Below are positions 10,411 to 25,063 of a stretch of 34,590 nucleotides of DNA, one piece after another. The translations under genes and the position numbers were made by a program. Every line of letters starts with the position of its first letter. Positions within the stretch are counted from its first letter, which is position 1. The notes beneath the pieces were generated by a model, which was given only the letters and a program-made list of their open reading frames with translations, made no database searches and was not told the origin of the DNA. This DNA is from Treponema sp. (GTDB lineage Bacteria; Spirochaetota; Spirochaetia; Treponematales; Breznakiellaceae): assembly GCA_009781915.1 (NCBI GenBank), contig WQUW01000013.1, forward strand, positions 1-34,590, written 5' to 3'.

Positions 10411-10438
10411 GTTAAACTCCTTTCCTCTGAATTTATTT

Positions 10439-10458
10439 ATTTACCCATACGGGCATTT
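10439..10458 (-). promoter_or_regulatory. Leader hairpin motif, site 1
   Basis: The minus-strand RNA core CCCGTATGGG (10444-10453) forms a 3-bp stem with a GUAU loop. Here the outer stem seen at the sister sites is weak (one G-U and one U-A pair). It lies 33 bases before the start codon of the CsgG/LRR lipoprotein gene. Confidence 0.5.
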
Positions 10459-10483
10459 TTTTCATTGCAATATTGGATTTAGG

Positions 10484-10512
10484 GGAAAAACCAGCAGAAA
10501 GCCGGTTTTTCC
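10484..10512 (-). terminator. Terminator with G-U wobble favouring the minus strand
   Basis: GGAAAAACCAGC (10484-10495) pairs with GCCGGTTTTTCC (10501-10512) around 5 nt. The one mismatch is A-C on the plus strand but a U-G wobble on the minus strand. A run of five Us lies in the 3' arm. It would end minus-strand transcripts arriving from the 204-residue gene and YidD-like remnant. Confidence 0.65.
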
Positions 10513-10586
10513 AGCACCAATACCGCTCTTTCTTAAATTGCCTTTTGAATATCAGCAATTTATACTTCATCACCTCATCTAGTTTA

Positions 10587-10748
10587 TTAGGGATAATCAA
10601 TATCCCCATTAGGTGCTTTGCACCGCATAATTCTATTCAGCCCATTTATTTCACCAATAATCGCTCCATATTTGTAAACCACCCTAAGCGTATAGTTAGA
10701 ACAGCTAGGAATAAATCGTTTAGGTATCTGGCAGTTTGGGCAGTCTAG
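10587..10748 (-). pseudogene. YidD-like C-terminal remnant
   Basis: A 53-codon open stretch on the minus strand has no start codon near its beginning and is bounded upstream by TAG. It reads DCPNCQIPKRFIPSCSNYT, then VVYKYGAIIGEINGLNRIMRC, then KAPNGDIDYP. The pattern matches the YidD membrane-protein-insertion factor core: Cys, then P-S/T-C-S-x-Y, then K-x-G-x-x-x-G, then R-x-x-R-C, then a G-x-D-x-P ending. The amphipathic N-terminal helix of YidD is missing and not found in other frames, so this looks like a truncated copy. It lies in an AT-rich stretch after the 204-residue membrane protein gene. A non-ATG start is possible but none has a ribosome binding site. Confidence 0.55.
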
Positions 10749-10815
10749 CTACTCTCCGGCGGTGCACAGCTACCGGTTGTTAAATGATGTACGCCATTTT
10801 ACAGGCAGTAATTTT

Positions 10816-11430
10816 TTAACCAACAAGAGTCTTAGCACGAGAAATAGCTTCTTTGCCTTTTCTTACGACTTCTTCATACTCCTTCATTTTCGTTGGGTAA
10901 TTTTTTTTCCATTGCTTATATTCTGCCATTTCTCGATCGAATTTTGCTTGATATTCATTGCGTTGCTTCTTCCATTTTACTATTTTTATAATAGTTAATA
11001 TGGTAAATAAAATACCAACAGCCACAAATAAAATTGCAACAGAAGATAAAACAAAACCAGCAATTGATAAAATCAAAAAGAAAACAGGAAAAGCTTCTTT
11101 ATAGATGTTATTATATTCAGGTTCACTACCCTCATAAGGCTCCTTATAATCATTTGCTTCATCATAAGTCTTCTCAAGAGCAACCAATTCCTGATAATTT
11201 GGCATTTCTTTATCACGTTGAAAAGTTATTTTCACGTAATGAATTTTTTCAGTTACAATTTTAGTTGTTTTTATACCAGCAGAATCGGTCCAACTATCTC
11301 CATCACGTACGGTTTTATTGAAAATTTCTTGGGGAGCCCCCAATAATTCCCATCCAAAGCTTTGCCATTTTTCAATTGTTTCCTCTACCTTATTAGGATC
11401 AATTTCAAGAAATTTTGTCTCTTTTGCCAT
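10816..11430 (-). CDS. Hypothetical membrane protein with two adjacent helices and C-terminal coiled coil
   Basis: This 204-residue protein of unknown family has a soluble N-terminal region (1-112) rich in Lys, Glu and aromatic residues. Two transmembrane helices follow in close succession (about 114-152, FFLILSIAGFVLSSVAILF and ILFTILTIIKIV). A strongly charged helical tail rich in Lys, Glu and Tyr ends the protein, probably as a coiled coil. There is no signal peptide. GGAGG lies seven bases before the ATG. The gene is clearly more AT-rich than its neighbours, as is 10411-10815, which suggests transfer. It is 146 bp downstream of the Ig-like lipoprotein gene and has its own leader hairpin (11476-11495). 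Function is unknown. Confidence 0.75.
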   Translation of the reverse strand: MAKETKFLEIDPNKVEETIEKWQSFGWELLGAPQEIFNKTVRDGDSWTDSAGIKTTKIVTEKIHYVKITFQRDKEMPNYQELVALEKTYDEANDYKEPYEGSEPEYNNIYKEAFPVFFLILSIAGFVLSSVAILFVAVGILFTILTIIKIVKWKKQRNEYQAKFDREMAEYKQWKKNYPTKMKEYEEVVRKGKEAISRAKTLVG

Positions 11431-11475
11431 TTGTGTCCTCCAAAAATAAACATTTACTGCCTTTTGGCATTTATA

Positions 11476-11495
11476 AACATCCCATACGGGTTGTT
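11476..11495 (-). promoter_or_regulatory. Leader hairpin motif, site 2
   Basis: The minus-strand RNA folds as AACA / A / CCC-GUAU-GGG / A / UGUU: 4-bp outer stem, 1x1 mismatch, 3-bp inner stem, GUAU loop. It lies about 45 bases before the ATG of the 204-residue membrane protein gene. The outer stem sequence differs from sites 3 and 4 but is still paired. Confidence 0.6.
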
Positions 11496-11514
11496 TTCAC
11501 AAAACATCCTTATA

Positions 11515-11540
11515 GGGCATGGGCATAATCGCCCACGCCC
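11515..11540 (-). other. Strong GC hairpin between lipoprotein and membrane protein genes
   Basis: GGGCATGGGC (11515-11524) pairs with GCCCACGCCC (11531-11540) around 6 nt, with one pair that is a G-U wobble in minus-strand RNA. No U tract follows on the minus strand, so it may be a factor-dependent terminator or a stability element for the upstream lipoprotein mRNA. Confidence 0.5.
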
Positions 11541-11576
11541 CAAAAACGCCGCCAGCCTTAACTAGCAGTTCGGGCT

Positions 11577-11951
11577 TTAATAACCCACAATTGGACCGAT
11601 CACATTGCTAAAGACTGTGTCCCCTCCTCCAGTGCGGCGGGATGCTCTTAAAAACCTGCCTGCCATACCAGCACCAAAGCCCGTCCCAATCTCAAGATTT
11701 TGATTGTTTGATCCGAAAACACGATTGTGTCCTATACCAATGATCGCATTACTCCAATTGTATTGCCCACCTATGGCGGAAACCTGCCAGCTAAAATTCC
11801 CTGTAAAATCGCCGTTTTGCGATGTCGCAGTGATGGTACTGCCCACTTGCGGATTACCGCTGATAGTTATCTCAGGCGACGCACAAGAGGTAAAGGCAAA
11901 CCCGATTGCCACAACTAAAACGGCAATCCCAAAAAACTTAAACTTATTCAT
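11577..11951 (-). CDS. Small lipoprotein with Ig-like repeat
   Basis: This 124-residue protein starts at the ATG at 11951, where AAAGGAG lies nine bases upstream; the in-frame ATG 14 codons earlier lacks one and precedes the signal. The lipoprotein signal ends FTSC (Cys23). Residues 26-60 (ITISGNPQVGSTITATSQNG, then FSWQVS) match the short Ig-like/beta-sandwich repeat pattern G-x-P-x-V-G-x-x-x-x-A...W common in spirochaete surface proteins. The tail is Gly/Asn/Arg-rich. The leader carries a GC hairpin (GCGGCG with CGCCGC) right before the Shine-Dalgarno sequence and the shared leader motif at 12000-12019. Function is unknown. Confidence 0.75.
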   Translation of the reverse strand: MNKFKFFGIAVLVVAIGFAFTSCASPEITISGNPQVGSTITATSQNGDFTGNFSWQVSAIGGQYNWSNAIIGIGHNRVFGSNNQNLEIGTGFGAGMAGRFLRASRRTGGGDTVFSNVIGPIVGY

Positions 11952-11999
11952 TACAAAAAACTCCTTTGCGGCGTTTAATGCCGCCGCTCGCATTTATTT

Positions 12000-12019
12000 T
12001 AATCTCCGTACGGAAATTA
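12000..12019 (-). promoter_or_regulatory. Leader hairpin motif, site 3 (variant core)
   Basis: The minus-strand RNA folds as UAAU / U / UCC-GUAC-GGA / G / AUUA. It has the same architecture as the CCCGTATGGG sites (4-bp outer stem, single 1x1 position, 3-bp inner stem, GUAN loop), but both stems have changed with compensation. It lies about 50 bases before the Ig-like lipoprotein ATG and touches the stop codon of the upstream LPP20 gene. Confidence 0.5.
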
Positions 12020-12607
12020 TTCCCTGACAACCGTAGGCGCATTCCTCTGTTCAAAAGCAGCGTCCATGCGATCCAGCGCCCACAGCGCAGCGTTAGCATG
12101 GGGAGCCAGAGCTGCGGCTATAGTGTTGTTGGCATCGACCCTGGGCATGGTCATAATTGTCCATGCCTCAAAAGCGTTGCCATCCCGAAATGTCCGTGTG
12201 TACGGGCGTGTTCCCCTAAGGTCAGCCTCAGCCAGTGTTCTGGAAACAGTTTGCTGAAAACTGAGCATCGCTTCAGGTTCCATATCAGAGCCCGCCGCAT
12301 AGTCTTCGATCATGTTCATTACCGAAGAATCTATCTGCTGGGCAATGGATACTCTGGCACGGTTCTCCGCAATCTGCCTTGCCATGTTCAAGTTCCCTGC
12401 CCTTGCGGTCCCAATGCCCACATATGCGTCATCGGGTGGGTTAGACATGACTTCCTGAATAAACGGGGGTTCGGCAGCCTCCCATTGCTGCTGCTGTTGT
12501 TGTTGTTGCTGCTGCCACTGCTCCCACTCTGGCGGCACTGAGCGGCAGGAAGCGGCGGTAAAAACCACCAACACTGCCAAGGAAACGAAGATAAAAGCTC
12601 TTTTCAC
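12017..12607 (-). CDS. LPP20-like lipoprotein with polyglutamine tract
   Basis: This 196-residue lipoprotein starts with GTG at 12607 behind AAGGAG (six bases). The signal ends FTAASC (Cys21). A W-x-x-W-Q10-W segment follows the anchor. Residues 58-130 (DDAYVGIGTARAGNLNMARQ, then IAENRARVSIAQQIDSSVMN) fit the LPP20 fold, with an A-x-x-x-A-x-x-R-A-R-x-x-I core that is clearer here than in the paralogue at 7090. The C-terminal half (EAWTIMTMPR) continues it. A strong promoter lies at 12698-12726. The gene begins a minus-strand series with the Ig-like lipoprotein (65 bp on) and the 204-residue membrane protein. Confidence 0.78.
   Translation of the reverse strand: MKRAFIFVSLAVLVVFTAASCRSVPPEWEQWQQQQQQQQQQWEAAEPPFIQEVMSNPPDDAYVGIGTARAGNLNMARQIAENRARVSIAQQIDSSVMNMIEDYAAGSDMEPEAMLSFQQTVSRTLAEADLRGTRPYTRTFRDGNAFEAWTIMTMPRVDANNTIAAALAPHANAALWALDRMDAAFEQRNAPTVVRE
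12485..12514 (-). repeat. Ten-codon CAG/CAA triplet repeat
   Basis: Ten successive glutamine codons, a mixture of CAG and CAA, lie just after the lipid anchor of the LPP20-like lipoprotein. A tract like this can change length by slippage in whole codons, altering the linker without breaking the frame. Confidence 0.8.
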
Positions 12608-12631
12608 AAATAACTCCTTAAAAAAATTTTT

Positions 12632-12651
12632 CTATGCCCATACGGGAATAG
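12632..12651 (-). promoter_or_regulatory. Leader hairpin motif, site 4
   Basis: The minus-strand RNA folds as CUAU / U / CCC-GUAU-GGG / C / AUAG: 4-bp outer stem, 1x1 mismatch, 3-bp inner stem, GUAU loop. It lies downstream of the predicted transcription start (about 12691) and 25 bases before the GTG of the LPP20-like gene, so it is in the mRNA leader and not the promoter. Confidence 0.6.
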
Positions 12652-12670
12652 TTTTTAACTACGAGCCTTC

Positions 12671-12690
12671 ATTACGAGAAAACTCGTAAT
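12671..12690 (-). other. 5'-end stem-loop of the LPP20-like transcript
   Basis: ATTACGAG (12671-12678) pairs perfectly with CTCGTAAT (12683-12690) around AAAA. It starts at the predicted +1, a typical place for an mRNA-stabilising hairpin. Confidence 0.6.
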
Positions 12691-12697
12691 AGTTGGC

Positions 12698-22854: not shown

Positions 22855-24888
22855 CTAAAACCGGTAGCGCAAAGAAACAGTTACCGAGCGTCCGCTTGCG
22901 GGGTAAAAGAGAGCTGGGCCCCCAAAGGTATCGAACACACCAAGCGTTGCGAAATTCCTGTTCAAAAGATTTCTCGCGTCAACTTGAATGGCCAATTCCC
23001 TGCCCTCTCCCGTTGTTACAGCGTAACGGGCCCGCGCGCCAAGCGAAAACCACGAGTCAAGCCTGTCGTCTCCCGCGTTTCCAATATCCGCAAGCAGGTA
23101 AGAGCCGCTTGCGTACTCGATGTACGGGCCAAAGCTCACTTCCCCGGGAAGCCGTACCGTCAGGCTTCCGTAGAACGTGTGGGCCGGAACCATAGGGATA
23201 GTGTTGCCGTTGTTTGGCCCGCCCGTAAATACGGCGTTGATAAAAGAGTAGGAGGCGGCAAGGGAAAGAAAGCCCACAGGGGTAACGTTGAAGCCAACAT
23301 TCGTGCCAACGCGCCGGGTCTGGTCAAGGTTTGCCACAGCCCATGTCATGGGGTCAACGAATATTTCATCTTCAAGCTGCATAAAAAAAACATTCGCGCT
23401 AATGTCCAGCATTCCGCCAAACCTGTAGGCCGCCCCCGCCTCAAGGTTAAAGCCCCTTTCGGGCTCTAAATGGGAGTTGAACGTCATGCCCCCTCCTTGA
23501 AGGAAGTGGACATTGGAGACTAACTCGTCCGTAAAGGGATAGCGGAACAGGGTTGCGTACCGTGCGTAGAACCGCAAATCACGCACAGGGTTAAAAGCAA
23601 TTCCCGCCTCATACACAAAGGCCGAAAAACTCCCCCCGTCATTCAGGTCGCCGGTTTCGGCGTCAAATGCGGTCATGTCAAAGCGGGCCCCGGTTGTAAG
23701 GTGAAGGCTGGGCAGCGGGGAAAAGCGTGCTGTGATGTAAGGCCCCGCAGTCCATTGGGAAATGGTAGAAGAGCTTTCAGTTGTTCTGCGGGATGGATCA
23801 TTGAACGTATCCGCTTCAAGCCTTGTAAAAGAAAGGTCAACGCCGCCAAGAACACGAAGCGGCATGCCTGCAAGGTCGAGCGTCAGTGAGCCTTGGGGCC
23901 GGGCCTCCAGAGTATGCAGGGCGGTATCGGTGTACCAATCCCAGCCAGCCATGTCCGCCGCGATAGTTCTTCCCCGGTATGAAAGGGGCAGGTTTACTTC
24001 GACATTTTCCACCGCAAACCACTGTAAGCCAATGCCGCCGCCAAAATGCCGCTCTCTGTTTTCGTCGTCAAGGTTTGGGGAGCCCCAAGCCATCGCTTGC
24101 CGTGGGTCGTCCTCGAACTCTTCCCTTGTAAGGCCGCCGGGAAGCTGATAGGCAAGGTACGTGAAAAAAGCGTTAAGCGAAAGAGTTGCGGTATCGCCCA
24201 GGAATATCGTGGCTCTGGAGGCAATGTGGTTTACCATAGAGCCCTGCCGCTGGCGGAAGCCTTCCGTTCCGGCGCTTTCGGCAGAGAGGGAAAAACTGCC
24301 CCATGCGGCGGGCGAAAAATGGAAGAACGACATTCCGTGGGAAAAAAAACTTCCGCCACTTGCGCCGACAACGGTACGCTGTTCGCCGCCCCTTCTGGTG
24401 ATGATGTTTATCACACCACCGACAGCGTGGTTGCCGTACTGGACAGAGGCGCTTCCGTCCAGTATCTCGATACGCTCAATGTCCGAAAGGGGAATGGCGT
24501 TCCAGTTTGTGCCTGCCATGTCCGGGCGGTTAATCCTGTTTCCATCCACCAGAACAAGAACCCGGCCGTGAGCGTTATCGCCAAAGCCCCGCATGGAGAT
24601 TTCCTCGGAGCCCGCCCCGGCCATCGCGCCGGAAAAGCGCACCCCCACAGCCCGCCCCAGCGCCTCGGTAACGCTTGCCGCGCCAGAGGCGGCAATATCC
24701 TCTGCCGTGATAACCGTAACCTGCGCGGCAACGGTGTCCGCCGGCTCCGGGGTTCTGCCCGCGACGACTACAAGCCCGCCGGCCTCGCCAAAATCAAGGA
24801 AATCGCCTTCGTCAAAGCTTTGGGCCCACAGCGGACACAACAGACCCCCGGCAAGCAGGAAAAGAGAGAAAAACCGAAAATGAGACAT
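22855..24888 (-). CDS. TonB-dependent outer-membrane receptor, probable cobalamin transporter (BtuB-like)
   Basis: This 677-residue receptor starts at the ATG at 24888, since GAAGGAG lies six bases before it; the ATG 21 bases upstream lacks one and precedes the signal peptide (MSHFRFFSLFLLAGGLLCPL, cleaved near WAQ). The plug domain has VVVAGRTPEPADTVAAQVTV, EALGRAVGVRFSG, ISMRGFGDNAHGRVLVLVDG and IERIEILDGSASVQYG. A 22-strand-type beta barrel follows, rich in alternating aromatic residues, and ends with a terminal Phe (VTVSLRYRF). The upstream cobalamin riboswitch makes a corrinoid the likely ligand. No TonB or ABC-transporter gene is adjacent. Confidence 0.92.
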   Translation of the reverse strand: MSHFRFFSLFLLAGGLLCPLWAQSFDEGDFLDFGEAGGLVVVAGRTPEPADTVAAQVTVITAEDIAASGAASVTEALGRAVGVRFSGAMAGAGSEEISMRGFGDNAHGRVLVLVDGNRINRPDMAGTNWNAIPLSDIERIEILDGSASVQYGNHAVGGVINIITRRGGEQRTVVGASGGSFFSHGMSFFHFSPAAWGSFSLSAESAGTEGFRQRQGSMVNHIASRATIFLGDTATLSLNAFFTYLAYQLPGGLTREEFEDDPRQAMAWGSPNLDDENRERHFGGGIGLQWFAVENVEVNLPLSYRGRTIAADMAGWDWYTDTALHTLEARPQGSLTLDLAGMPLRVLGGVDLSFTRLEADTFNDPSRRTTESSSTISQWTAGPYITARFSPLPSLHLTTGARFDMTAFDAETGDLNDGGSFSAFVYEAGIAFNPVRDLRFYARYATLFRYPFTDELVSNVHFLQGGGMTFNSHLEPERGFNLEAGAAYRFGGMLDISANVFFMQLEDEIFVDPMTWAVANLDQTRRVGTNVGFNVTPVGFLSLAASYSFINAVFTGGPNNGNTIPMVPAHTFYGSLTVRLPGEVSFGPYIEYASGSYLLADIGNAGDDRLDSWFSLGARARYAVTTGEGRELAIQVDARNLLNRNFATLGVFDTFGGPALFYPASGRSVTVSLRYRF

Positions 24889-24936
24889 GTGTTTCTCCTT
24901 CGGGCCCATTCCACGAGGCCCAAAAAAAATATGGTG

Positions 24937-25028
24937 CGTATACTAAAGTTCCTGGCTTTACCGGCCCTAGAGCCGTCACAGTTACGGGATAGCGGGGGAT
25001 TTGCACCCCTCTTCCTTTGAAGTATACG
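24937..25028 (-). promoter_or_regulatory. Cobalamin riboswitch
   Basis: The minus-strand leader has the corrinoid-aptamer core: GGGGTGCAAATCCCCC, then GCTATCCCGTAACTGTGACG, then the B12 box AAAGCCAGGAAC. The closing stem P1 is perfect: CGTATACT (25021-25028) with AGTATACG (24937-24944). The aptamer is compact at about 92 nt. After it come U8 (24922-24929) and a 5-bp hairpin, GGGCC with GGCCC, just before the Shine-Dalgarno sequence of the receptor gene, so control may act on translation. It is expected to lower receptor expression when cobalamin is abundant. Confidence 0.92.
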
Positions 25029-25034
25029 AGGGAA

Positions 25035-25063
25035 AGTCTACATTGCCGCGCAAGGCGTGTCAA
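25035..25063 (-). promoter_or_regulatory. Sigma-70 promoter driving the riboswitch
   Basis: On the minus strand TTGACA (25058-25063) and TAGACT (25035-25040) are separated by 17 bases. The predicted transcription start coincides with the first bases of riboswitch stem P1, so the aptamer is at the very 5' end of the mRNA. Confidence 0.88.

Follow-up and report, generated by a model that had tools for sequence, protein, structure and literature searches.

L10 (rplJL) leaders mediate L10(L12)4 autoregulation in E. coli and B. subtilis (PMC4538822). A review covers the protective 5' stem-loops of E. coli ompA and H. pylori vacA (PMC7509114). In Treponema, HMP2_2105 is an 86-nt candidate structured RNA upstream of the gene for 50S ribosomal protein L7/L12, reported as a possible ribosomal protein leader (PMC8040213). 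Here we describe a short hairpin with a GUAU-type tetraloop that occurs in four gene leaders within a 34,590-nt stretch of Treponema sp. DNA (contig WQUW01000013.1, assembly GCA_009781915.1; hereafter, the window) and in leaders of unrelated genes elsewhere, including rplL, which encodes L7/L12. It looks like an unrecognised gene-expression signal shared between genes.

The window corresponds to contig C13 of a draft genome (2.82 Mb in 180 contigs, 97% complete), of which 1.56 Mb was read with home-made gene calls. The source organism presumably belongs to the termite-gut Treponema group of spirochaetes. G, L and C numbers are our handles for genomes, loci and contigs.

Four hairpins in the window

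The first-pass annotation had proposed four related hairpins on the minus strand of the window, and all four are found there. A GUAU-loop leader hairpin is defined here as a GUAN loop with a pyrimidine-purine closing pair and a covarying stem, located in a sense leader upstream of the ribosome-binding site; all four window sites have these features. They lie at 12630..12653 (-) (AACUAUUCCCGUAUGGGCAUAGAA, P0004 leader; CUAU-u-CCC-GUAU-GGG-c-AUAG), 11998..12021 (-) (AAUAAUUUCCGUACGGAGAUUAAA, P0003 leader; a GUAC loop on 8 unbroken pairs, overlapping the P0004 stop codon), 11474..11497 (-) (AAAACAACCCGUAUGGGAUGUUUA, P0002 leader; AACA-a-CCC-GUAU-GGG-a-UGUU) and 10437..10460 (-) (AAAAAUGCCCGUAUGGGUAAAUAA, P0001 leader; UGCCC-GUAU-GGGUA). 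The last had been described as having a weaker outer stem; it has 5 unbroken pairs and so is not really a weaker site.

The folds are supported by closing-pair probabilities of 0.91-0.99 for all four loops in full leaders (ViennaRNA; 0.97 at P0004). The loop lies ~36-60 nt before the start codon, and folding of the leaders gives no pairing between the hairpin and the ribosome-binding site. At P0001, the ribosome-binding site AAAGGAG (10413..10425, -) is 3' of the hairpin and is left uncovered by it, as judged from sequence and fold.

Enrichment in sense leaders

Genes were called by a simple method using hexamers and ribosome-binding sites, and leaders of up to 120 nt were taken. Tetraloop hairpins were counted on the sense strand, on the antisense strand and in dinucleotide shuffles, with a 65% identity rule to remove repeated leaders. 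In the discovery part of the genome, GTA-type loops rank first at stems of at least 5 pairs (8 sense, 2 antisense, 1.2 shuffled). The resulting prediction held in a separate 800-kb part, where GTA loops number 14 sense, 3 antisense and 1.0 shuffled. In the same part, non-redundant GTAT hairpins with stems of at least 5 number 8, 1 and 0.5 respectively (p ~4e-7). A third, smaller part is weak alone, with 2 sense, 1 antisense and 0 shuffled at stems of at least 5, and 5, 3 and 0.7 at stems of at least 4. When the 1.56-Mb sample is taken as a whole, GTAT leads all loops at stems of at least 5 and at least 6; at the former threshold there are 12 sense, 3 antisense and 1.4 shuffled cases. Among tetraloop hairpins, the one most over-represented in sense leaders has a GUAU loop, closed by a pyrimidine-purine pair on an otherwise unconstrained stem.

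Taken together, tetraloop hairpins are barely enriched in leaders of the 1.56-Mb sample (389 sense, 358 antisense, 308 shuffled). Across the genome, GTA-loop hairpins are average on both strands (rank 35 of 64). The signal is therefore particular to this loop and to the sense strand of leaders. The annotation had staked its proposal on the hairpin not being equally frequent in coding or shuffled sequence; the hairpin is indeed enriched in sense leaders, and the proposal survives.

The exact string was also counted. YCCGTAYGGR occurs 6 times in the window against 0.52 expected, which, taken alone, would have been weak evidence. Genome-wide it occurs 26 times against 44 for its reversed control, mostly inside genes and without enrichment; exact CCCGUAUGGG also has no genome-wide enrichment. 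Without genome-wide enrichment of the exact string, the signal does not reside in the string. Copies of CCCGTATGGG likewise lie mostly within genes and show no genome-wide excess, and a structural motif was accordingly preferred to a sequence motif or operator.

Conservation before rplL

In the source genome, one leader match preceded rplL; the same was found in G032. Across the order, 38 of 50 typed genomes have a GUAN-loop hairpin 34-46 nt before the rplL start, keeping its place with respect to the start codon. It is found in 27 of 31 genomes of the source genome's own family and in most genomes of families f2, f4 and f5. None of the four f3 genomes read has it; a further f3 genome, G062, has a model match at the expected place. 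Among the 38 loops, 28 are GUAU, four GUAC, four GUAG and two GCAU. In alignment A1 the loop is G-U-A-N, with G and A invariant and U above 90%. In rplL loci totalling 167 kb, every strong GUAU hairpin closed by a pyrimidine-purine pair is sense, and nearly all are at the rplL leader. In another collection of named genomes, the hairpin is present in 7 of 11 spirochaete rplL leaders and in 0 of 51 from other phyla.

In the rplL alignment, 89.1% of cells are paired, compared with 58.8+-2.2% after shuffling and 32-43% in slid controls; hairpin position was picked partly by pairing, so that the absolute percentage is somewhat inflated. There are 108 double changes against 40 in shuffled alignments, and compensatory changes occur at all 8 pairs. 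Selection by pairing cannot explain the contrast with the slid controls or the number of double changes, as both are too large.

The rplL hairpin is intercistronic between rplJ and rplL, and must therefore be transcribed with the operon. This position bears on whether the hairpin is an RNase processing signal that parts cistrons (rplJ/rplL, P0004/P0003). Several sites are intercistronic and the site at 12005 overlaps the upstream stop codon, as such a signal might; however, many sites are in single-gene leaders, and stems of 3-9 pairs would be short for RNase III substrates. We consider a processing signal improbable.

A covariance model, R1, was built from the rplL hairpins only (one of 38 from the source genome, none from the window) and run unfiltered on the window. 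Its top four matches are exactly the four reported sites, at P0002 (22.8 bits, E 0.00034), P0004 (21.1 bits, E 0.0011), P0003 (20.8 bits, E 0.0013) and P0001 (20.0 bits, E 0.0022); the next match has E 0.56, and the tool itself describes its E-values as rough. Over 1.56 Mb of the source genome, 15 of the 20 R1 matches of at least 15 bits fall in sense leaders, which make up 2.8% of the sequence.

A DNA operator or a chance palindrome, acting other than as RNA, is extremely improbable. CCCGTATGGG and TCCGTACGGA are near-palindromic, which would suit an operator, but pairing is kept while stem sequence is free, G-U pairs included, and covariation thus already contradicts this explanation. Strand bias is also strong: all strong matches at rplL loci are sense, and the leader counts are 8 against 1. 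Chance is excluded by the R1 ranking in the window, the share of R1 matches in leaders and the leader p-value. The four hairpins are real. A common RNA signal, as the annotation had suggested, is strongly supported by leader, strand and loop specificity together with massive covariation at rplL.

Further targets

The hairpin recurs before unrelated genes and in other genomes. Some P0004 homologues carry it on unrelated stems, in G034 (aaacUUCC-GUAU-GGAGguuu), G011 (ggggUCUU-GUAU-GAGGgcccc) and G006 (guUCUU-GUAU-AAGGac). In the source genome, a P0004 paralogue (64% identical, G000:C6:20739) has the hairpin CCCU-GUAU-GGGG, and a whole-genome R1 search adds a lipoprotein on C161. Other targets, named from a reading of their sequences and not from family searches, are tripartite ATP-independent periplasmic (TRAP)-type and ATP-binding cassette (ABC)-type binding lipoproteins, a TolC-like protein, porin-like proteins and, in two genomes, precursors resembling those of ribosomally synthesised and post-translationally modified peptides (RiPPs).

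Among genes downstream of the hairpin, those for lipoproteins are enriched (raw count 12 of 29; ~7 of 22 after removal of repeated leaders, against ~10%, p 0.006). This bears out one part of the earlier claim that the targets are secreted and membrane proteins; the claim is too narrow in that the hairpin also precedes rplL in most of the order and RiPP-like precursor genes. A looser version, CCC-GUU-GGG, had been noted before the SUMF1 gene; this is attributable to chance (1 match against 0.76 expected).

A repeated leader of ~110 nt is present in at least 12 copies in the source genome, before different lipoprotein genes (L102:19368-19480(-), L109:774-880(-), L119:5.8k, L166:18.2k, L169:10.8k, L183:10.2k and L245-L251). 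Its GUAU hairpin, CCUGCUU-GUAU-GAGCGGG, and a downstream hairpin (AGCGGGUAAUCAC/GUGAUUACCCGCU) use the same arm and so compete. Because of this competition, the repeated leader could be a switch.

RiPP-like precursor genes with double-glycine type leaders and a GUAU hairpin are found in G031 (L262, L263, L267 and L271) and in the source genome (L109:11554-11712). The G031 loci are four near-identical copies, with the hairpin 71 nt before the start.

Proposed role

We propose that the hairpin is a putative cis-acting RNA element of mRNA leaders which is recognised by its loop and acts positively on translation or mRNA stability. We give this reading a probability of roughly 0.5. Such an element would combine a constant tetraloop (GUAU, with GUAC and GUAG as less frequent forms) with a pyrimidine-purine closing pair and any stem that pairs, a few nt upstream of the ribosome-binding site. 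A shared factor, either an RNA-binding protein or the ribosome itself, would recognise the hairpin by its loop. Expression of the downstream gene would be raised or sustained by aiding ribosome loading on the open AU-rich stretch after the hairpin; alternatively, the hairpin would shield the leader from decay.

Loop conservation points to recognition, because GUAU is not unusually stable (its energy lies at the median) and other loops are not comparably enriched. A positive effect is suggested since the ribosome-binding site stays free and since large amounts would be expected of the encoded proteins, namely L7/L12, lipoproteins, substrate-binding proteins and RiPP precursors. It is also suggested by the best-conserved target, rplL, whose product is required in several copies per ribosome. 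A rival reading is a repressive site, at which an RNA-binding protein on the hairpin would block the ribosome or trigger decay, co-regulating envelope genes and rplL. One hairpin before diverse genes fits a regulon, and a conserved loop fits recognition by a protein; however, there is no overlap between the hairpin and the ribosome-binding site downstream of it, and constitutively needed rplL would be an odd target for a shared repressor. We consider repression unlikely.

A number of observations weigh against a loop-recognised positive element. Outside rplL, spacing is wider, with the loop 22-110 nt before the start. In 400 kb each of G003 and G032, 0 and 3 GTAT leader hairpins with stems of at least 5 are found; the target set beyond rplL varies much among genomes, and few genes besides rplL are targets in these two. 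P0001 homologues in relatives are without the hairpin. In some genomes, a hairpin with another loop takes the same place before rplL (CUGU in L202, CGUG in L221), a hint that the structure could be sufficient by itself.

The main rival explanation is accordingly a purely structural leader hairpin, which would protect the mRNA 5' region or processed end from decay, or keep the ribosome landing zone open; the loop would be a mild preference and there would be no specific binding partner. Apart from the sites with other loops, this is favoured by the precedents of ompA (E. coli) and vacA (H. pylori) (PMC7509114), and by sites found shortly after what could be a promoter, as at L037 and L109:11554. 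On the other hand, tetraloop hairpins overall are hardly enriched in source-genome leaders (389/358/308) whereas GUAU is (12/3/1.4), and GUAU has no special stability. In addition, the rplL sites are inside an operon and not at a known primary 5' end. We regard a purely structural role as somewhat unlikely.

Proteins with an RNA recognition motif (RRM; PF00076) were considered as candidate partners. Of 59 relatives, 51 have them; the complete genomes G033, G037 and G040 have none and are also without the rplL hairpin. A wider genome set gives this link no clear support: in it, RRM-negative drafts (G082, G109, G152, G164 and G180; 85-94% complete) carry the rplL hairpin and RRM-positive genomes without it exist.

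The hairpin might define an order-wide spirochaete post-transcriptional regulon, in which a putative RNA-binding factor or specialised ribosome contact would jointly set synthesis of L7/L12, surface lipoproteins, transporter binding proteins and RiPP precursors. This extension is tentative, and we hold it with less than even confidence. Such a regulon would couple translation capacity to envelope output, and ribosome-stalk synthesis would be linked with envelope protein output in spirochaetes. Conserved leader RNAs common to unrelated bacterial genes are uncommon and can reveal a global post-transcriptional regulator. The 24-nt element can be scored by covariance model, and rplL provides a natural, well-conserved reference site. 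Members of the order bearing the element are probably cultivable, so that the partner could be fished out directly.

Genes and other features of the window

The four genes downstream of the hairpins are all on the minus strand. P0004 (12017..12607, -), the first of the four, has a GTG start and encodes a 196-aa lipoprotein without a Pfam or NCBIfam match. Upstream of its GUAU hairpin is a perfect 8-bp hairpin, ATTACGAG-TTTT-CTCGTAAT (12672-12691, -), directly after a promoter-like site, TTGACA-N17-TAAAGT; it is possibly an operator or a 5'-end hairpin. P0003 (11577..11951, -) encodes a 124-aa lipoprotein with signal peptide and lipobox. Its true start is probably ATG 11951 and not 11993, judging by the signal peptide, the lipobox and an upstream AAAGGAG. 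A second short hairpin, GCGGCGGCATTAAACGCCGC (11960..11990, -), is seen in sequence and fold between the GUAC hairpin and the P0003 ribosome-binding site; the same order, a GUAU-type hairpin followed by a second short hairpin, is repeated at L042:14722 and L181:72. P0002 (10816..11430, -) encodes a 204-aa membrane protein without signal peptide, with no family above cut-off. P0001 (8209..10410, -) encodes a 733-aa lipoprotein with BspA-type leucine-rich repeats (PF13306, E 1.6e-8).

An ordinary cobalamin riboswitch (24892-25042, -) precedes a TonB-dependent receptor gene (22855-24909), which is matched over its full length by vitamin B12 receptor models. Elsewhere in the source genome, a dispersed repeat with the inverted repeat GCTGTTCCAAAATCTGACATTTTGGAACAGC is found in many places, e.g. 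L185:4532, L042:3755, L169:1842 and L040:10393.

Comparison with known systems

The hairpin matches no Rfam 15 family: at gathering score, only AdoCbl (24892-25042) is found in the window, and only a tRNA in six further loci. Permissive Rfam scans of the site region and 16 loci give irrelevant matches at chance level, with Termite-flg and Termite-leu not among them. The hairpins are not intrinsic terminators: no U run follows directly, and the ribosome-binding site comes next.

HMP2_2105 is alike in gene, bacterial order and leader position (PMC8040213). Unlike the GUAU hairpin set, it is given no link to envelope or other genes in the available text of that report (PMC8040213). A second conserved element, CCGUCAGGCUUC..GCUGCCGUUCCUGUCGG, is present in the rplJ-rplL spacer across the order, ~60-110 nt before rplL (e.g. 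L186, L199, L224, L229 and L236). It is independent of the GUAU hairpin, as it also occurs in genomes without it; rplL leaders of the Treponema sensu stricto type (L229, L230 and L236) have no GUAU hairpin and keep the second element. HMP2_2105, which fits in position and is 86 nt long, may be this second element.

L10 leaders control the same operon (PMC4538822). They precede rplJ, whereas the GUAU hairpin is found in the rplJ-rplL spacer as well as in front of unrelated genes; no L10_leader match (Rfam) is found in the rplL loci, and the hairpin matches no Rfam leader. The E. coli ompA-type stem-loop is also a small hairpin in the leader of an envelope protein gene (PMC7509114). In contrast to ompA, the GUAU element has a loop that is conserved between genes, and its sites can be intercistronic. 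To our knowledge, ompA-type protection involves no conserved loop common to different genes. CsrA/RsmA sites are likewise short leader hairpins in many genes. CsrA sites have GGA in the loop; the loop of the GUAU element is GUAN, and any GGA sits within the stem, which sets it apart from CsrA sites.

A literature search for a GUAU tetraloop found nothing, and no report of a GUAU hairpin common to rplL and envelope genes was found in the non-subscription literature searched. A candidate RNA before Treponema L7/L12 has thus already been published as HMP2_2105, while the multi-gene set described here appears to be new.

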